Shown here: positions 5,868 through 15,750 of the stretch, piece after piece
Position numbering within the stretch: position 1 is the stretch's first letter
How the letters are laid out: each line of letters opens with the position of its first letter
From: Nitrospinae bacterium RIFCSPLOWO2_12_FULL_45_22
GTDB lineage: Bacteria; 2-12-FULL-45-22
Assembly: GCA_001803565.1 (NCBI GenBank)
Contig: MHDQ01000122.1
Span: 1 to 18,778 of the forward strand
Length of the DNA: 18,778 nucleotides
Direction: 5' to 3'
Made by a program: the position numbers and the translations under genes
Notes under the pieces: generated by a model
The model's input: only the letters and a program-made list of their open reading frames with translations
Databases searched by the model: none
Told to the model about the DNA's origin: nothing

Positions 5868-6833
5868 GGATTCACAATTCCATACACGGCCATAGCCATA
5901 GAAAGAGAAAGCCATCCCGTAGTTATTCACACCCACAAGGCCAATGAGATTGCCCGCTATCTTATAGAAAAAGGATCGGTACCGGGTCTTGAAGATGCAA
6001 AAGTACTCCAACAAGAGGTTACCAGAGGAATAAGTCGGTTTGACTTTCTCCTGGAAAAGGACATGAGGGGAATTATTCTTGAAGTTAAATCATGTACCCT
6101 CTTTAGCAGGAGGGTAGCCATGTTTCCCGATGCCGTAACGGTCAGGGGAAGAAGGCATATAGACGAACTCTCAAGACTTTCTGGGAGCGGGATCGCTGGC
6201 GCAATTTTATTTCTAATACAGTGGCCGTTTTCAGAGTTCTTTATGCCGGAGCATCATACAGACCTGGAATTTAGCAACACCCTTTGTAGAGCAAAGGAGA
6301 AAATAAAAATCTTTCCACTCTCCCTCTCTTGGAACAGAGACTTTTCTATAAACTTGTCCCAGGTAAGGATTCTGGATATACCCTGGAGTATCATTGAAAA
6401 AGAAGCTAAAGATAGGGGGAGTTACCTGCTTCTTCTCAGACTACCAGAGGAAACCACAGCCGATGTAGGTTCACTGGGAAAGGTACATTTCAGGAGCGGT
6501 TACTATATCTATATAGGCTCAGCCAAAAAAAATCTCTCCAAGCGCATAGAGAGACACAAAAGGTTGAGAAAGAAACTTTTCTGGCACATTGACCATTTAA
6601 GAGAAATTGCTGATTTTCATGTCGCCCTGCCCATACGCACACAAGATGCCCTTGAGTGTGAAATTGCCGCAGCCATAAAGAAAGTTGCAGAGTGGGAAAT
6701 AACCAGGTTTGGATCATCAGATTGTTCCTGTGATTCCCATCTTTTTGGAACTTTAAATGATCCACTTGCCTCGCCCCACTTTCACTCGATACTTCAATTC
6801 TACAGAATGGAAAGGCTCTTAAAGGATCTATAA
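5868..6833 (+). pseudogene. SfsA-type nuclease fused to a DUF123/GIY-YIG-like domain, N-terminus lost
   Basis: The frame opens after a TGA at 5865-5867 and reads SfsA-like sequence at once (PYTAIAIERES, HKANEIARYLIEKG). No ATG, GTG or TTG occurs before 6063. The PD-(D/E)xK-like residues expected in SfsA are present: Asp in SRFDFLLEK, then Glu and Lys in ILEVKSCTL, followed by AMFPDAVTVRGRRHIDEL. The first roughly 75 residues (the OB-like N-terminal domain of SfsA) are absent; in their place is repeat-like DNA (about 5820-5850). From about 6415 the protein continues into a second domain, GSYLLLLRL then GYYIYIGSAKKNL, with CSCDSHLFG near the end. That is the DUF123 domain, which resembles GIY-YIG nucleases. 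A shortened product from ATG 6063 is possible but would lack the catalytic Asp. It is most likely a dead or truncated gene. Confidence 0.75.
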
Positions 6834-7325: not shown

Positions 7326-7520
7326 TATTAATCCCTACCTGAAACCAGAGCATAATGATTATGTGGCGATTTCTAATGATGAGGGAGAGGCAACTTTCAA
7401 GCAACTCAAAAAGTATGGCAGAAAAATAGAATCAAAATTAAGCCAATACTCGGCAAAAGACGGATTCGCCCAACAAAGGATTTCCATGGTTGTAGAAATT
7501 TACGTTGATACATTACTTTT
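7312..7520 (+). pseudogene. Remnant of an S24/LexA-like repressor peptidase
   Basis: The frame from 7312 reads GIIIINPYLKPEHNDYVAI, then NDEGEATFKQLKKYGRK. This is the pattern around the catalytic lysine of S24 peptidases (LexA, UmuD and CI-like repressors); K of ATFKQL would be that lysine. The serine-containing GDSM segment and the whole DNA-binding half are missing on the left. After about 7425 the family-like sequence continues in the next frame (IKIKPILGKRRIRPTKDF) and then returns to the first frame (MVVEIYVD, about 7486-7509), so at least two indels are implied. The left end abuts the truncated hicA on the opposite strand. I see no intact protein here. Identification rests on short motifs and is moderate. 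Confidence 0.5.
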
Positions 7521-7771
7521 CCTCCTTTCATCCTGGCAAGTGCCAATTCCACCTCATTCTTTTTGGGGTTGCCGAAGTTGCAAAGACAATCCCGACTAAT
7601 CGTAGCTAAGTCGGCAACCCCGTATTCAGGAAAAGCGTCAGACATCCCTCCCGTAGACGAATTATCTTTGACCAAATAGGGAATCTTCTATCACAAAAAG
7701 AGTCTCATCGCCACATCTGGTAAGTTGAATAGCTTCAGGCTAAACCCGGTACATTACGATATGGGTCAGCC
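7521..7771. other. Stretch without a recognised gene; contains an 11-base inverted repeat
   Basis: GGGGTTGCCGA at 7565-7575 and its exact complement TCGGCAACCCC at 7611-7621 can pair across a 35-base loop. A short minus-strand open frame covers this area but matches nothing I recognise and has no Shine-Dalgarno site before a plausible start. No terminator T-run was seen downstream of the EPAH gene, which ends at 7772. Confidence 0.45.
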
Positions 7772-8482
7772 TTAACGATTCTCCTCGGGACCTTCCGGGC
7801 ACATGCCTTTCTCCATTCGGAAGAAATGTGCTGGTTCCTTTACTTCAGGCCGTACCGGTTTACGGAGGGTTTCCCGGACAAAGGCCACCCGGTCCACAAG
7901 ACGCAACTCCGGATACACCCGGTCGATCGCCTCAATCAGCACCAAATCCTCAACGGCGATGGCTATTCCTGGATCGAACCAGTGCGCTGGCTCTTGCCAT
8001 TCCCACCCCTGTTTCAGCGCTTTACCTCCGATTCCGACCACTGACTTAGGTCGAATGTCGGTCGCGAGTCTCTCCCTGACGAAATGGGCCGGCTCCATCC
8101 AGTCCGTCCGCAGCTTCAAATGAAGTGCATCGAACCAGATTAAGTACAGATTGTAGTTTCCCGCCGCGACCTTCCATGGGTCCGGCATTGGTCCAAATAC
8201 TTTGGATAGTTCCTTATCAAAAAGCGTGTCTTTGAGGTGTTCCGCCCCCATGCAAATACACTTATGTACACCCTTGTCTCCCACCTCTAACACGACTGGC
8301 ACGGTGGTAGTTACCACAAACCCTATCTGCCGTGATACCTGGTCGAATGCGTTGTCTATCTTTACCTGATATTTCTCACGGATGCGGGTGTATATGGTAA
8401 TCAGGTCATCGTGCAGTTTTACGACCGCCGGATGCGCTGGTTCCACCCAATCGCGTATGCGAGCAAATGTTTTTCCGTCCAT
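7772..8482 (-). CDS. Uncharacterised protein with four EPAH motifs
   Basis: I do not recognise a named family. The 236-residue protein has no signal peptide or membrane segment. Its striking feature is the tetrapeptide EPAH four times, at residues 14-17, 130-133, 164-167 and 216-219. Three copies are preceded by an aromatic pair or single Trp (DWVEPAH, DWMEPAH, EWQEPAH) and three are followed by an aromatic (HF, HW, HF). The four copies use different synonymous codons, so the peptide rather than the DNA is conserved. Between copies 1 and 2 lies a compact-looking region with C75-x-C77 and DPWKVAAGNYNLYLIWFDAL. The start is secure: AAGGAGGTG stands four bases before ATG 8482. It is the last gene of a minus-strand, GC-richer group after the B12/radical SAM gene. 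It could be a substrate of that enzyme, a structural scaffold, or a metal-binding protein; none is shown. Confidence 0.8.
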   Translation of the reverse strand: MDGKTFARIRDWVEPAHPAVVKLHDDLITIYTRIREKYQVKIDNAFDQVSRQIGFVVTTTVPVVLEVGDKGVHKCICMGAEHLKDTLFDKELSKVFGPMPDPWKVAAGNYNLYLIWFDALHLKLRTDWMEPAHFVRERLATDIRPKSVVGIGGKALKQGWEWQEPAHWFDPGIAIAVEDLVLIEAIDRVYPELRLVDRVAFVRETLRKPVRPEVKEPAHFFRMEKGMCPEGPEENR

Positions 8483-8630: not shown

Positions 8631-8748
8631 ATAATCTCCCTTCTATCTATCGTTCGACTGAGCGTTCGTCTGAGACCTCGGCGTGAGCTCGGTCGAACGC
8701 TCACGCCGAAGACTCACGACGAAGTCAAGAGGGGCAGAGGGGGAGTTA
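8631..8748. repeat. Large imperfect inverted repeat between the radical SAM and EPAH genes
   Basis: The core is a perfect 10-base stem, CGGCGTGAGC (8679-8688) with GCTCACGCCG (8699-8708), around a 10-base loop. The pairing continues outward imperfectly through GTCTGAGACC / AGACTCACGAC to ATAATCTCCC at 8631 and GGGAGTTAT at about 8741-8748. The element fills much of the 327-base gap and has no coding content. Its size and imperfect arms suggest a MITE-like or other dispersed element rather than a simple terminator. Confidence 0.6.
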
Positions 8749-8809: not shown

Positions 8810-10588
8810 TCACCTCCTTTCATCTTTTTGTTCAGCCAATCGGTTTTTAAACACGTGATACGGGATTGGCGCGGGCGCCACTCCCAGCAAGTCTGTGTCT
8901 TCCATCCATTCGGAATCTGGCGTCATAAACTCCAAATTCTCCAGACTCTCTAGGCCGTAATAAGGCTTAGGTTTGCAGCTCAGGAAGGGCAGCGCTCCGG
9001 TATTTGACACGAACCTCGACACCCTGGCATCCTGGCCACGATGATCGTACGTATTGCTCAACCTGCGCAGAATACGCTCGCCCTGGGCATGTAAGCCTCT
9101 GCTCCTTTCGTCAACGCGTTCTCTCATCTCGCGCGCAAAACCACGGACCATGACATGATCGTTCGGGTTTGCTGTTGCCACAAAGTCGTAGATCTGGCAG
9201 AGGCACTCGTAGGTATCCAGGTTGGTCTGCTTGATGAAGTTGCGCACTGATGCGCGCAATGTCTGTGTCAGTACTTCCGGATGGAACCGACGCAGCAGTT
9301 GGAAGTAGAAATCCACCTGCATGTTGAAATAGTGCAGTCCGAAATCGCTGAAATTACGATCAAAGAAGGCGTAGTTAGCGATTTGGTGAAATGCCTCAGA
9401 GCGCGGGTCTTTAAGCCGGTAATCGAATCCAAAGTAGTCACCAAGCAGCCGGCCTTCAGCCCTCAGTTTCGCCTCTAACCCAGTACCTGGGTAAGCCTCT
9501 GCACGGCAGAAGTTGAATGGATTCTCGATGTGCCGTTCGATAAAGCGTAAATTGACCAGGATATCATTCAAAACTGTGTCGGGTTCGAACATGAGTAAAT
9601 TATAGGCGAGGTGCACATCGAAGTCATTGAGAATGCGCAGTGCGTTCAGTATCTGGTCGAGGGTGCATTTGCGGTTCAGGTTACGCAGCCCATTCTCATG
9701 TGCGTTTTCCACCCCCAGGAATACACGAAACAATCCCAGGCCATCCAGCACCCGGATCGAGTCATAGGTAATGCTATCAGGCCGCGCCTTGACTGCTATG
9801 GCGATCCCTTCGATTCCCTCTTGCTTCAATCCGTCTCTCAGTTCCTCGAAGCGGCGAAGCGCCTTCTCTGGTCTTGGGAGAAAGAAGTTGTCATCCTGAA
9901 AATTAAAGATCCGGACACCGTAGCGAAAGTAGAGTTCCTTCATCTCTGCCACGATGTTCTCCACGCTTCTCACCCGAAACTTCTTCCCACCTCCCCTTTC
10001 ATACCAGGCATTAATGCTGCAAAAAGCACAGTTGCGCCAGCATCCCCGGCTGGTCAGGATGCTCGCAATGGGCTTATCGAAATATTCGTGGAATGTTAAT
10101 CGTTTGGGAAACGGTAATGCGTCTAGATTATCCTGATTGCCAGTTGAAATGTTGGTTGTTACTGATCCATCAGATTTTCGATAGCAAAGGCCGTGTACCC
10201 TGGATAGATCTTCAAGATGATCAGCCAACATACTAACGATATGTTCGCCTTCACCCAGGCAGACCGAATCAAATGCGGGAAAATCCCGGAGCAGATGTTC
10301 TGAGTTGAATGAGGCGAAGGGACCACCTGCCGTCAAATGACCATGAAAACCACCTTCCCGGAGCGCCTGCGCCAGGTAACAGAACTCTCGTGCGCGACCT
10401 GTGAACATCATAGACAAACCGATGATCTGTGGGGAGAAGGCGATCACCTGCTTTAGTGCCTGTGAGATGTCATACTCCGAGTTGAATGGGACGATTTCCA
10501 CCTGGTGTTCTTTGTATTCTAGTGCAGAGGCTATGTAACGCAGGCCGAGGTTTTCTTCCAACTCTGCACCTACCAATGCAACTTTCAT
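8810..10588 (-). CDS. B12-binding-like radical SAM protein
   Basis: This is a radical SAM enzyme of the cobalamin-binding class, 592 residues. The 4Fe-4S motif is C183-x3-C187-x2-C190 in GCWRNCAFC. The N-terminal 140 residues have the alternating pattern of a B12-binding Rossmann-like domain (KVALVGAEL, IIGLSMMFTG, HLTAGGPFAS, DSVCLGEGE), but the cobalamin-ligating DxHxxG motif is not visible; ENLGLRYIAS stands in its place. After the barrel (FNFQDDNFF, FLGVENAHENGL, AYNLLMFEPDT) comes a long C-terminal part with no motif I recognise. ATG 10588 is chosen because AAGGAGGTGG precedes it; the longer open frame upstream reads unlike any protein and covers a hairpin. Family members act as methyltransferases, in RiPP maturation, or in other radical chemistry. 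The neighbours suggest a peptide or protein substrate, but that is inference. Confidence 0.88.
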   Translation of the reverse strand: MKVALVGAELEENLGLRYIASALEYKEHQVEIVPFNSEYDISQALKQVIAFSPQIIGLSMMFTGRAREFCYLAQALREGGFHGHLTAGGPFASFNSEHLLRDFPAFDSVCLGEGEHIVSMLADHLEDLSRVHGLCYRKSDGSVTTNISTGNQDNLDALPFPKRLTFHEYFDKPIASILTSRGCWRNCAFCSINAWYERGGGKKFRVRSVENIVAEMKELYFRYGVRIFNFQDDNFFLPRPEKALRRFEELRDGLKQEGIEGIAIAVKARPDSITYDSIRVLDGLGLFRVFLGVENAHENGLRNLNRKCTLDQILNALRILNDFDVHLAYNLLMFEPDTVLNDILVNLRFIERHIENPFNFCRAEAYPGTGLEAKLRAEGRLLGDYFGFDYRLKDPRSEAFHQIANYAFFDRNFSDFGLHYFNMQVDFYFQLLRRFHPEVLTQTLRASVRNFIKQTNLDTYECLCQIYDFVATANPNDHVMVRGFAREMRERVDERSRGLHAQGERILRRLSNTYDHRGQDARVSRFVSNTGALPFLSCKPKPYYGLESLENLEFMTPDSEWMEDTDLLGVAPAPIPYHVFKNRLAEQKDERR

Positions 10589-10778: not shown

Positions 10779-13124
10779 CTATGAACTAGGTGGCTCCTCC
10801 AGACAGAACCCGATATCAACTGCGACGCAAAACGCAAACCCATGGCTGTCATAGTTGGTGCGGTCACACACCACCATGTGAATAACGTACCCGCAGGGGT
10901 CCATATCAGTCGTGTCCAGTCTCCAATAGCCCGATTCGCCTGTGGTAGGCACCGTCGGGAAGGAACGGCTAGTCGCGAAGGTATAAGTAATTCCTCCGTC
11001 ACCCGAGAGCATGACCGTGGCCCCGTGGGCTGGCCCGTCTGGGATGACGTCGAGGCTTACGCTCCCGAAGTGCTGGTTGACCAGGTCGCTCGTGCCAGGG
11101 TCATGGACCTCGTACGTACCGGTCAGGATGGTACCCACGGGAAACTTACCGCAGTCTATAGCCGGAATGGGGTTGCCGTTGAACGTAGCACCGGTGATGG
11201 TCAAGGTAACCGGGGCGTATGGCTGAAGTGCAATATTTGCCGCAGGGACTGACGATGGGGCGGTGTTGTCAACGCGCACCCTGATTACCTGCGCTCCTGG
11301 ATAGAGTGTAGGAGGACTGACATTCGGGTCTTTCGCCTCCATTCTGATCTCCCATTCGCCTTCCATCGAGGCGTTCGTCAGCCACCTGGCAAGTTTATCC
11401 ACCACCAGGAAGCGGGTGGAGGGAGCCGTGTGGTCTTCCAGGTATTCGTACCAGCCCTCGCCCAGGCCATCGCCATCGTCAGTGGCCGTGAGGTTGAGGT
11501 TAAATATTGTATCACCCGGCGATTCCTCTTGCTGCACTGCGCCTATGAATTTTGTGACGTCAACTTCTATCGTGTTGGTGAGCGGATGCCAGGTGTCAAT
11601 GCCGTCATCTTTTCGGACCAGGATTCTGTATTTCAGTGGTAAAGCCCCGCCGCCATAGGAATCTGGCAGGGTGCCTGCAATGCGTCCGGTGATGGTAATG
11701 CCGCCTCCAAATGGACTCAAGGTTACTGAGAAGGCGCCGATCTCCGCATCGCCGGTAGCCAGCCCGGTGGCTGGATCAATGTCATCAACTGCGATATCGC
11801 CAACGGTCTCGATAACCGGGCTACGTGCCACCGCTTTGCTAGGCCGCAATTGGATGAGGCATTCCTCGCGATTTCCCCAGACCGGAACATAGTTCGGGTT
11901 CGCGGGGGGCGGTGGGGTCTCCCAGGATAGAATGGCGCGTAGACGGACGATCTTCGGCCCAGCTTCACAGGGCACGAGATACTGGGAGAAGTCTTTCTTG
12001 AGAAAGACGGCATACTGGACATCCTCCGGCGGGATGGTCTGGAGGTCGTGGACCTGCGCGGTGGCTGTGCCCATATAGGTGAAGCCGCTGCCGTCGCCGA
12101 AGTCGATCCAGAAGGCCACGTACTCTGTTGACCCCTTGGCACATAGCCCGCCGGAATAGCCGGAAGACCTTTTGATCGTGAGCACTGCTTCTAGCAGGTC
12201 GCTTTGTGGGCGAAGACCGACGCATCTTAGCTCTTCATAGCTGGTGTCTCCGTCCGTTACGATCTGGAGTTTGCCGAAAAGCTCCGCGATTTCGCTCACG
12301 CTAAGTCCAAGGGACGCTAAAGGACTATCACCATTCGCTGTGACTAAGGCTGAGGTTACCGTCTTGGCCGTCAGGAGCGTCTGCGCCTCTGTGAAACCGA
12401 AGCGGTGAACCGGCACGCCCTTGTTCGCATAGAGCACCTTCTTCTGGGAAAGGCTTAGAGTCTCCAGCGTAAAAGGTTTAATTGTGATATTTGGGTCCAG
12501 GCCAGCAATGACGGGGCCGATTGGGTCCGGGATCTTGACCTGAAGGTCAACAAGCCCTTTTACCAGGTCACCCACGAAGAAAGAGTACTTGGGTTGAATC
12601 TGGACCTGGACGGTCAAGACATTCCCATAGACCGGCGGCCAGTTGGGTTGATTTGCCGGCGGCGGCGTGTCCCAGGAAAGGATGGCTCGCACCTTGACGA
12701 TGTTCTCGTTGGTGCAACGCTTCTTGAACGGGGTAAAGTCCTTCCTCACGGCGTAGCAGAGGGGCTTGCCGCCAGGGATGTTATGGACTCGCACACTGCT
12801 CAATCCCACATCGTGCCAGACACCGTTGTCATGTATGTCGACGTAGAACCGAACATACTCAAACGATCCTTGGCTGCAGATGTCGCCTCCGTATCCAAAC
12901 TCCTGCTTAAGGTGGAGCACAGCTTCCAGGCGGTTGGATGGAGGGTTTAGCCCCACACACATCAACTCTTCATAGGTCGTAACGCCTTGCTGAAGCTTGA
13001 CTGGCTTGTATGGACTCAACTCCAGGTTGCCGAAGTAGTTGGGGTTTTGTAGGATCAACGAACGGAACTGTGCCCGCTCTCGTTCTAATGTTGTTGTGTT
13101 TTCGGAATTTTCACAGGTTTTCAT
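10779..13124 (-). CDS. Uncharacterised 781-residue protein with a duplicated cysteine-containing domain
   Basis: No named family is recognised, and there is no signal peptide or membrane segment. After a short charged start comes FRSLILQNPNYFGNL (about 20-34). A domain of about 135 residues then occurs twice, at about 48-180 and 293-430. Both copies share TxYEELxCVGLxP, LEAVLxIK, GYxGxxC, GSxEYVxF, xVHD/N, VRAILSWxTPPP and PVxGN. Three cysteines align between copies (C56/C301, C83/C328, C137/C386), so they are conserved and may bind metal or form a cross-link. The C-terminal half (about 435-781) is rich in Gly, Thr, Pro and Val, looks all-beta, and includes VRVDNTAPSS typical of Ig-like repeat regions. 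AAGGAGGAG precedes ATG 13124. The gene begins directly after a group II intron fragment and is followed by the radical SAM gene. It could be a structural or surface-associated protein or a partner of that enzyme; its function is unknown. Confidence 0.8.
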   Translation of the reverse strand: MKTCENSENTTTLERERAQFRSLILQNPNYFGNLELSPYKPVKLQQGVTTYEELMCVGLNPPSNRLEAVLHLKQEFGYGGDICSQGSFEYVRFYVDIHDNGVWHDVGLSSVRVHNIPGGKPLCYAVRKDFTPFKKRCTNENIVKVRAILSWDTPPPANQPNWPPVYGNVLTVQVQIQPKYSFFVGDLVKGLVDLQVKIPDPIGPVIAGLDPNITIKPFTLETLSLSQKKVLYANKGVPVHRFGFTEAQTLLTAKTVTSALVTANGDSPLASLGLSVSEIAELFGKLQIVTDGDTSYEELRCVGLRPQSDLLEAVLTIKRSSGYSGGLCAKGSTEYVAFWIDFGDGSGFTYMGTATAQVHDLQTIPPEDVQYAVFLKKDFSQYLVPCEAGPKIVRLRAILSWETPPPPANPNYVPVWGNREECLIQLRPSKAVARSPVIETVGDIAVDDIDPATGLATGDAEIGAFSVTLSPFGGGITITGRIAGTLPDSYGGGALPLKYRILVRKDDGIDTWHPLTNTIEVDVTKFIGAVQQEESPGDTIFNLNLTATDDGDGLGEGWYEYLEDHTAPSTRFLVVDKLARWLTNASMEGEWEIRMEAKDPNVSPPTLYPGAQVIRVRVDNTAPSSVPAANIALQPYAPVTLTITGATFNGNPIPAIDCGKFPVGTILTGTYEVHDPGTSDLVNQHFGSVSLDVIPDGPAHGATVMLSGDGGITYTFATSRSFPTVPTTGESGYWRLDTTDMDPCGYVIHMVVCDRTNYDSHGFAFCVAVDIGFCLEEPPSS

Positions 13125-13144: not shown

Positions 13145-13699
13145 GATGATAAGGATGAGTCGAGTAGATCGGTTTCTCCCGATGCTACAGGTTGAGGTTT
13201 GTTTTCTCCGTTTTCTGCCTGGTTTCCCGGCAGTACCACAATATTTCAACCATACATCAGTTGGCCCCAACCCTTTCCCTCCCCCGGTATTACCCGGCCT
13301 CATTGGTAATATGGGTTGATCCGACTACCTATGCTCCGTCCTCTGGCCTCGTCTCCTCGGCTTCACGTACCCACATTGCTGCAGGAAAGCATAGGTCCTC
13401 CCAGGTTCCTGTGAAATCCCTTGGACAGCATGCCATGGACTATGACCCCGGTGGAGTATCCGCCATCTCACCTATATCGATGGCTTCGTTGCTGTCTTCC
13501 GTGTTCCTTAACCACGTCGACTCGCTCCACATCATAAGCATTTTCGGAACTGAATACCTTCACCCTTACGGCCTACTGCCTCCCTGTTTACGCTCCACCC
13601 ATACGATTACCCGTATAGATGCAAAACTCGGGACGGTCGGCTAACTTTATCAGGTTGGCTTCTCAACCAACTGAATCTCACAAGCTTGGCCTGGCGCAC
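13145..13699 (-). mobile_element. 5' part of a group II intron, reverse transcriptase and 3' domains missing
   Basis: The minus strand starts with GTGCG at 13699, the consensus 5' end of group II introns. It continues with landmarks I know from bacterial introns: GGTTGAGAAGCCAACCTG, GAGTTTTGCATCTATACGGG, GTAAACAGGGAGGCAGTAGG, ACTCCACCGGGGTCATAGTC, ATGGCATGCTGTCCAAGGGA, and near the end AAAACAAACCTCAACCTGTA and CTACTCGACTCATCCT. In such introns the maturase reading frame follows at this point. Here the 781-residue gene starts instead. No domain V (the conserved 34-base hairpin with a GNRA loop) was found downstream on this strand in the region examined by eye. The open frames on the plus strand here are shadows of this RNA. 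The fragment cannot splice as it stands. Confidence 0.75.
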
Positions 13700-13805: not shown

Positions 13806-15188
13806 AAATATAAGAAGGTTTTAGGACATAGCTTTGCCGGAAAGTTGGCTATATGGCAGATCATCGCACGAGTAATTGACCAGGGTTCCAGGCTTTCCGC
13901 TGTTCGGCTGGCACAAACACACGCAGCATGCGACCTATTAGAGATAACACGTGGATTTGATGAGAACGATCCCTACGACAATCTAAAATGGTTAGCCGAT
14001 AATCAGGAAAAAATCGAAGATAGTCTATTCCGATCAAGGCGTGGTAAAGATAAGCCACAAATATTCCTTTACGACGTAACAAGCAGTTATTTAGAGGGTG
14101 AAAGAAATTATTTTGCTGAGTACGGCTATCCACGCGACCAAAAAAAGGGGAAAAAACAAATAGTCATCGGATTATTATGTGATGAGTATGGTGCTCCAGT
14201 CTCTGCAGAGGTCTTTGCTGGTAATACACAGGATCCACAAACGTTTTGCTCGCAGGTTAAAAAAGTGGCAGATCGCTTTGGTTGTGAGAATGTAACATTT
14301 GTAGGTGACCGAGGGATGATTAAAAGCGCTCAGATAGATGCTCTACCAGAAGGTTTTCACTACATTACGGCAATAACCAAGCCACAGATACATACTTTAA
14401 TTACTCAAGGTCTCATTCAGATGGGGTTATTTGATGAGAAGATTTGTGAAATTGAGGATGACGGGGTGCGTTACATCCTGCGACGCAATCCATGTCGTGA
14501 AGATGAGATCGCCAAGACCCGCTTGTCAAAGCGTCAGTGTATTGAGAAATTTATTAGAGAGAAGAATCTCTACCTGGATGAACATCCGAGGGCTAAGGTA
14601 TCCGTAGCAATAAAAGAGGTGGAAGAGAAGATAAAACGTCTTAAAATTGACATCTGGTTGAAAGTTGAGGAGCAGAATAGGGTATTAAGTTTGAAGCAAG
14701 ATGATACCGCACTAAAAGAAGCATCCCTTCTGGATGGTTGCTACGTGATTAAGACTGATCTTCCTAAAGAGGCAGCAGATAAACAGATTATCCATGATCG
14801 TTATAAGGATTTAGCTTTAGTGGAACAAGCTTTTCGTAACTGCAAAACTGTGATTCTGGAAGTTCGGCCAGTGTTTGTGCGGACAGAGAAGAGTACTCGT
14901 GGTCATGTGTTAGTAGTGATGCTTGGATATATGATTGTACGGAGGCTCCATCAGGCCTGGGCCGGGTTTGATTTGACTGTTGAATAAGGTCTTAAAAAAT
15001 TATCAACTCTTTGTTCCATAGAAATGAAAGTCAAAAATAATAGTTCTTATTTGAAGATTCCTCGACCACGGAAGGAATCCAGGGAATTATTGAATGCATT
15101 AAATATTAGGATGCCTATAGTCTTGCCTCATCGGGAGGTGAATGTAGACACTAAGAAAAAATTGCCAAAGCAACGCAAACTCCTTTAA
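13806..15188 (+). pseudogene. IS1634-type (IS4 superfamily) transposase, truncated and with an in-frame stop
   Basis: This is a DDE transposase. The frame from TTG 13845 reads LAIWQIIARVIDQGSRLSAV, with Asp in FLYDVTSSYLEG (residue 77), Asp in FVGDRGMIKS (155) and Glu in LALVEQAFRNCKT (327), the Y-R-E region of the IS4 superfamily. The frame is open only back to a TGA at 13803-13805, and the usual N-terminal 130 or so residues of the family are absent. At 14985-14987 the frame hits TAA (DLTVE-stop). Beyond it the same frame continues for 66 more codons of family-like sequence (GLKKLSTLC, LKIPRPRKESRELL, LPHREVNVDTKKKLPK) to the natural stop at 15186-15188. A single G-to-T change (GAA to TAA) explains the break. 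The element is inactive by itself. Confidence 0.85.
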
Positions 15189-15204: not shown

Positions 15205-15750
15205 CCAAATCATACCTTATCTTTTGGGGTGAACAGGATGGCCATCTCTGGGGGCGAATGTACCTTAAACAGATTATGGCTGCTGCAATATGTGAGAGAG
15301 CTAAAGAGGCTAAACCCGGACCCTAATGCAAGGATTCATATAGATACTAATGGCTCTATCCTGACAAAGGATTATATAGACGAGCTGGTCGAAGCCGGCA
15401 TGACCGATATAGACCCAGACCTTAAGGGGTATTATCCGGAGACATTTATGCGGATAACCGCCATAGAAGATAAAGGACTTGTGGAGAGGTACTTGAATAC
15501 CGCATGGGATGCAGTTAGGTATCTGATTGATAAATATAAGGATAGGGTTTTCATTGGTATAGGGATACCGTACAATAAGGAACTTTTATCGGCTCAACAG
15601 ATAAATCCCAATTTTTTTTTTGCACTATCAAAAACATGGTCTACTTTATATATCAAACAAAACCAATGGGAAATAAAGTTTTGGCCTATTGACAATGCGC
15701 AGGTAATATTTGCTAACCCTTTGTTTTTATTAAGATTTTATGAATCTTAA
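15205..15750 (+). pseudogene. Radical SAM enzyme fragment, both ends missing
   Basis: The frame reads GVNRMAISGGECTLNRLWLL, then HIDTNGSILTKDYIDELVEAG and PDLKGYYPETFMRI, the pattern following the SAM-binding GGE motif in radical SAM activating-type enzymes. The N-terminal CxxxCxxC cluster motif is absent because the frame closes at a TGA (15202-15204), directly after the transposase remnant. After IGIGIPYNKELLS (about 15600) the sequence loses resemblance and runs through a ten-T tract into random-looking AT-rich sequence before stopping at 15750. A GTG at 15229 could start translation, but the product would lack the iron-sulfur cluster. It is best read as a gene broken by the neighbouring insertion plus a second loss at its 3' end. 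Confidence 0.72.

Follow-up and report, generated by a model that had tools for sequence, protein, structure and literature searches.

An EPAH-repeat protein encoded beside a B12-binding radical SAM enzyme and its possible role as the motif-bearing substrate of that enzyme

What does a short peptide do when one protein carries it four times, each time in different codons? This question is raised by a gene of the window (the whole stretch of 18,778 nucleotides that was analysed), whose 236-residue product contains the tetrapeptide EPAH at four separate sites. The gene and its motif copies are as follows.

7772..8482, minus strand: EPAH-repeat protein, 236 aa; open reading frame with translation, 12 homologues, start, core and motifs conserved
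8432..8443, minus strand: EPAH copy 1, residues 14-17 (RDWV-EPAH-P); invariant in 12/12 aligned members
8084..8095, minus strand: EPAH copy 2, residues 130-133 (TDWM-EPAH-F); invariant in 11 orthologues, EPVH in the most distant relative (L023)
7982..7993, minus strand: EPAH copy 3, residues 164-167 (WEWQ-EPAH-WF); invariant in 12/12
7826..7837, minus strand: EPAH copy 4, residues 216-219 (PEVK-EPAH-F); invariant in 11 orthologues, missing from L023
8488..8495, minus strand: Shine-Dalgarno-like AAGGAGGT, 5 nt ahead of the ATG of the EPAH gene; read from the sequence

Motif copies, homologues and predicted structure

A sequence-only reading of this DNA had placed EPAH at these four sites with four different synonymous codings, and both residues and codons were recovered exactly. 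It had also described the flanks as Trp before and an aromatic residue after three of the copies. The aromatic residues are there (P, F, W and F follow copies 1 to 4), but Trp does not directly precede the motif and sits at position -2 in copies 1-3 (W-x-EPAH). From composition, 0.003 EPAH would be expected per such protein, and only 1 of 20,000 shuffles of the protein contained any tetrapeptide four times. The 12-mer coding for EPAH occurred 16 times in the whole 3.67-Mb genome, compared with 7 for the reversed control; no second multi-EPAH gene was found in that genome, the EPAH-repeat gene alone holding more than one copy. At the DNA level no repeat among the copies was detected beyond two pairs of 13-mers at 92%. 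Recent duplication as the source of the four copies was rejected on these grounds, the differing codons and the lack of a DNA-level repeat, in agreement with the earlier reading.

Thirteen family members of 225-274 aa were examined: the window gene and 12 homologues, eight from a search of the genome collection and four from profile searches (G448, G645, G532 and G1074). The homologues came from two genomes of the Brocadia order (Brocadia carolinensis and one other), from a Bryobacterales genome, and from members of Geoalkalibacter, Geomobilimonas, Desulfuromonadales, Syntrophobacterales and other Deltaproteobacteria. Few sampled genomes carry the family: 2 of 395 in the Geomobilimonas phylum, 4/141 and 4/136 in two orders, 2/62 in the Brocadia order and 1/250 in the class of the Bryobacterales genome, the starting genome being included in each count.

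Alignment of the 11 clear orthologues demonstrated the invariance of the motif: 59 of the 236 window residues were invariant, and these included all 16 EPAH residues (hypergeometric P about 4e-11). Invariant residues occur in the core as well, for example W116, Y110, D43, F46 and D47. Between the window gene and its close relative in G645, only synonymous changes were present at all four copies. Selection on the peptide itself, as had been suggested, is thus well supported by the 16/16 invariant residues and by synonymous turnover within each copy.

Copy number was not fixed. Orthologues carried four to six copies, some of them beyond the four core positions, and no member had fewer than four when EPVH was counted. 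Gain of copies is visible in the sequences as units such as RKLIPGVREPAHFR near the C-terminus (L004, L007, L008 and L020), as RPEVMEPAH twice and tandem cassettes such as RPEVMEPAHIRPEVMEPAHPS in L003, and as an added HWMEPAH in L005; the extra C-terminal copies look like duplicated units. In L023 the C-terminal copy has been lost, two copies (one of them EPVH) stand where copy 2 would be, and every motif copy is preceded by FRPPP (FRPPP-EPAH). The expectation that all four copies would be invariant among homologues therefore held in the 11 orthologues and failed in the divergent L023, where one position was lost and another gained. Free variation in motif number and position, which the earlier reading had named as evidence against a role for the motif, was not seen, since all 11 orthologues retain the four core positions. 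Judged from these alignments, number and flanks vary while the tetrapeptide and a minimum of four copies persist.

No family model in Pfam, NCBIfam, PHROG or PADLOC matched the EPAH protein, and no described family was found, as the sequence-only reading had supposed when it stated that it knew of no family defined by this motif. Neither an EPAH motif or repeat nor EPAH together with radical SAM was found in the literature searched, which included only a minority of subscription papers. Several matches were rejected as chance: one to PHROG (0.14), one to PADLOC Cmr6 (0.027), a Pfam match in one family member (0.046), and a PDB sequence match to influenza haemagglutinin HA2, which spans one long helix and beyond (E 0.009 with the single sequence, 0.5 with the profile). 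A viral-contig match (L010) was also discarded, being 50 residues inside a repetitive 2190-aa ORF without EPAH. The profile search of viral contigs gave no match to the EPAH protein and the plasmid search only matches at E 5-10.

An AlphaFold model, built with 12 sequences in the alignment, contained a confident core at residues 18-125 and 173-207, with a helix at 18-53, strands at 60-67, 73-78 and 108-115, and helices at 87-95, 117-125, 177-189 and 195-207. The pLDDT was below 50 at residues 1-15, 127-172 and 208-236, which from so shallow an alignment is a prediction and not proof of disorder. In this model the EPAH copies lie within the segments predicted disordered or at their edge, copy 1 (14-17) straddling it. 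For the core, no confident fold match was found in the PDB. The nearest folds were TolA/TonB C-terminal domains, with a Foldseek E of 0.57 at best and, by VIA-align, Z 4.7 and rmsd 3.2 over 84 residues, values inside the stated noise range of the tool.

Pairing with a B12-binding radical SAM enzyme

Directly upstream on the same strand lies a second gene.

8810..10588, minus strand: B12-binding radical SAM protein, 592 aa from MKVALVGAELEENLGLRY; Pfam domains and fold; upstream of all 13 EPAH genes

Its reading frame can be read from 11002, and the start was set where the homologues begin. The N-terminal B12-binding domain matched PF02310 at 9.3e-16 (58 bits, cut-off 32) and the Radical_SAM domain matched PF04055 at 7e-19; the cysteines of the CxxxCxxC motif (C183, C187 and C190) were invariant in 9 and in 15 aligned sequences. 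The predicted model had a pLDDT of 81.5, and Foldseek returned OxsB (E 1e-22) and MgmA (E 1e-19). Profile and predicted fold both matched OxsB, MgmA, TsrM, TokK and CysS; a helical part at 395-518 and a low-confidence tail are features of its own. With a B12-binding domain, CxxxCxxC and the fold of solved members, the neighbour is predicted from sequence and model to be a class B radical SAM enzyme.

Its substrate class is less easily read. OxsB, TsrM, TokK and CysS, class B enzymes with solved structures, were the best matches in sequence and fold, but they share only 14-18% identity with the window enzyme, act on small-molecule or free/carrier-bound substrates and have no EPAH-like partner. 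The highest NCBIfam scores were those of HpnR (94 bits) and HpnJ (91 bits), both hopanoid enzymes, and BchE (84 bits), all far under their cut-offs; no named NCBIfam equivalog scored above cut-off (HpnR 94 against 650 bits). The score was 87 bits for TIGR03975, the model of RiPP-maturing C-methyltransferases (cut-off 281.85), and 57 bits for the MgmA model (cut-off 360). A PADLOC PDC-M51A match (1.2e-10) was set aside as a generic radical SAM match, not evidence of phage defence. The cobalamin radical SAM enzymes also include some that are not methylases (PMC9692996).

Physical and genomic linkage of the two genes was established by gene order and co-occurrence. The enzyme gene (about 590 codons, MKVALIGAELEENLGLRY...) was upstream of the EPAH gene and on the same strand in 13/13 loci; in L008 a DUF900 hydrolase gene stands between them. 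One such enzyme was present per genome in the first eight genomes. Separate searches for the enzyme and for the EPAH protein recovered exactly the same 4 of 136 genomes, and in another set the same 2 of 395 genomes carried both at full length. Three weaker enzyme matches among the 395 genomes were other proteins that EPAH does not adjoin. Distant radical SAM relatives in G389, G059, G213, G269 and G768 were likewise excluded, matching only the first ~400 profile positions, and no EPAH protein was found beside them. Pairwise distances of the two proteins were strongly correlated (r=0.95; none of 10,000 permutations as high), a correlation that joint inheritance alone would also produce. Both the co-occurrence and the correlated distances would likewise follow if two genes that share some other task had been transferred together.

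The enzyme and EPAH genes were the only constant genes across the loci, other neighbours varying by lineage, and no conserved neighbour able to supply a small-molecule substrate was found at the loci examined. Exopolysaccharide-like genes, putative and read from gene ends, adjoin the pair in L040, L051 and L054, and L006 has a LuxR-type regulator upstream, similar ends being present in L008 and L009. In a few loci peptidases lie near the pair, and their three kinds are unrelated: C70/C39 in L002 (1638-2225), papain C1 with DUF900 in L008 (3679-7835) and a caspase in G645 (L041, 14707-15540). Their presence could reflect chance or a functional link. In the window, the gap between the two genes contains nested imperfect inverted repeats at 8659-8716 (18 nt at 89% and 16 nt at 88%), a possible hairpin by sequence.

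Possible roles of the EPAH motif

We propose that the EPAH protein is a dedicated protein partner of the upstream enzyme, most likely its substrate, and that EPAH is the motif bound and modified repeatedly; we give this reading about an even chance of being right. EPAH would be a short linear motif in flexible segments flanking a small folded core, so that each protein would offer the enzyme several sites to bind and modify. If the chemistry resembles that of class B radical SAM methylases, one of the residues E, P, A or H might be C-methylated or altered in another radical reaction. The modified protein might then offer a tuned metal- or partner-binding surface, which is a guess. The earlier reading had proposed a recognition or modification site, and that proposal has gained a concrete partner in the radical SAM enzyme always encoded alongside; that the enzyme acts on the EPAH protein, that EPAH is the site and what kind of chemistry is involved, we infer. 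To our knowledge, no residue of EPAH is a common target of cobalamin radical SAM enzymes.

Action of the enzyme on EPAH would explain why the tetrapeptide is fixed while its flanks, number and spacing drift, why the copies lie outside the fold, and why the two genes were found only together. The cassette-like extra copies and the FRPPP before every copy in L023 are what one would expect if a single enzyme reads the site. One observation that speaks against a protein substrate is that the best family scores of the enzyme belong to the lipid and small-molecule enzymes HpnR, HpnJ and BchE.

The closest precedents are the B12-binding radical SAM protein methylases MgmA and Mmp10, which act on methyl-coenzyme M reductase (PMC11796369, PMC8828468). 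MgmA methylates a protein Gln, and its cleft takes an extended linear peptide of the protein substrate, so that such chemistry exists in this enzyme class (PMC11796369). The fold of MgmA matches that predicted for the window enzyme. In contrast, methyl-coenzyme M reductase is methylated at single sites and not at copies of a repeated motif, the window contains no such reductase, and in sequence the window enzyme is far under the MgmA cut-off. METTL9 offers a likeness of logic, with no homology claimed: a short linear His motif (HxH), often repeated in its substrates, sets the modification site (PMC7873184), although that enzyme is eukaryotic and non-radical and carries out N-methylation.

A radical SAM enzyme with a linear-motif substrate is a known kind of system, and the present arrangement is a variation on it of which we found no description. 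The stronger statement, that this is a new modification system in which the enzyme modifies every EPAH copy in a dedicated folded partner, the two genes being inherited and transferred among distant lineages as a unit, we hold more tentatively, at somewhat less than even confidence. For most B12 radical SAM enzymes the substrate is not known and is difficult to predict. In the present case the genomes provide both an enzyme and its partner, and with them a probable recognition sequence, so that a motif of four residues becomes directly testable. If EPAH is modified, this would be repeated, motif-directed radical modification of a folded protein and not of an ordinary peptide natural product.

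Four other explanations were considered, and they rank roughly as follows. The first is docking, in which EPAH binds the enzyme or another partner multivalently and the chemistry takes place on the folded core or on another molecule. A short motif repeated in segments predicted disordered, constant while its flanks vary among the copies, would suit docking, and the folded core has invariant residues of its own. However, simple docking does not usually call for four identical copies whose positions stay the same from one major lineage to another, and the partner is putative; we regard docking as unlikely.

Second, the enzyme may act on a lipid, a tetrapyrrole or another small molecule, with the EPAH protein as scaffold, carrier or subunit. 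The top NCBIfam scores given above and the folded, conserved core of the EPAH protein are consistent with such a role. No further conserved biosynthetic gene accompanies the pair, however, and a carrier role leaves four invariant copies in flexible segments unexplained, which makes this explanation rather improbable.

The EPAH histidines might, third, be metal or cofactor ligands, the protein being a partner of the enzyme that binds or delivers a metal, for instance for the FeS cluster or the cobalamin. Among the first nine members no histidine was invariant apart from the four in EPAH, and the minimum of four copies fits such a site. Yet E, P and A show the same invariance as H, beyond what ligation alone requires, counts of five and six exist, and AlphaFold does not model the motif segments as ordered. 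We consider histidine ligation quite improbable.

Last, an unusually long multi-core RiPP precursor, from which modified EPAH pieces are excised, is very improbable: the tandem cassettes of L003, the weak match to TIGR03975 and the scattered peptidases would favour it, but a conserved folded core separates the copies, extra copies are few and the loci have no peptidase or exporter in common. This locus does resemble RiPP systems with radical SAM maturases (e.g. the TIGR03975 group), which place a modifying enzyme, found here in 13/13 loci, beside a gene with repeated short motifs. Their precursors are short leader-core peptides without a globular domain, whereas the partner here is a 225-274-aa protein (236 aa in the window) with a folded, conserved core; the enzyme is below the family cut-off, and the peptidases near the pair, confined to L002, L008 and L041, belong to different families.

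Surroundings and probable transfer of the block

A third gene of the window lies in a block with the pair.

10779..13124, minus strand: 781-aa protein without known family; part of the block common to G645; no Pfam, NCBIfam or confident PHROG match

Relatives of the 781-aa protein were upstream of the pair in both Brocadia-order loci and missing from the loci of other lineages, and by this comparison it is an optional neighbour. The protein contains the internal repeats TTYEELMCVGL and TSYEELRCVGL. The segment 7698-13139, comprising the EPAH gene, the enzyme gene and the 781-aa gene, shared 82-87% DNA identity with the Brocadia-order genome G645 (locus L041), the 781-aa gene itself reaching 87%. 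A further piece at 7516-7625 was 71% identical to G645, and the outer flanks were unrelated. The genome of the window has only the domain in common with nearly all genomes sampled as relatives. Because of the high DNA identity, the unrelated flanks and this taxonomic distance, the block has probably moved between distant lineages.

Other elements of the window were noted. A DDE transposase gene lies near the block at 13845-14987 (Pfam). A group II intron (Rfam RF02005, 108.8 bits, E 2e-30) lies just upstream of the 781-aa gene, at 13436-13663 on the minus strand. At 15229-15750 a 173-aa radical SAM fragment matched its Pfam profile only from position 48, the cluster-binding start being missing, and is likely a remnant. 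On the other side of the pair, a single ORF at 6063-6833 matched SfsA (residues 4-91) and DUF123 (residues 142-228), an apparent fusion.
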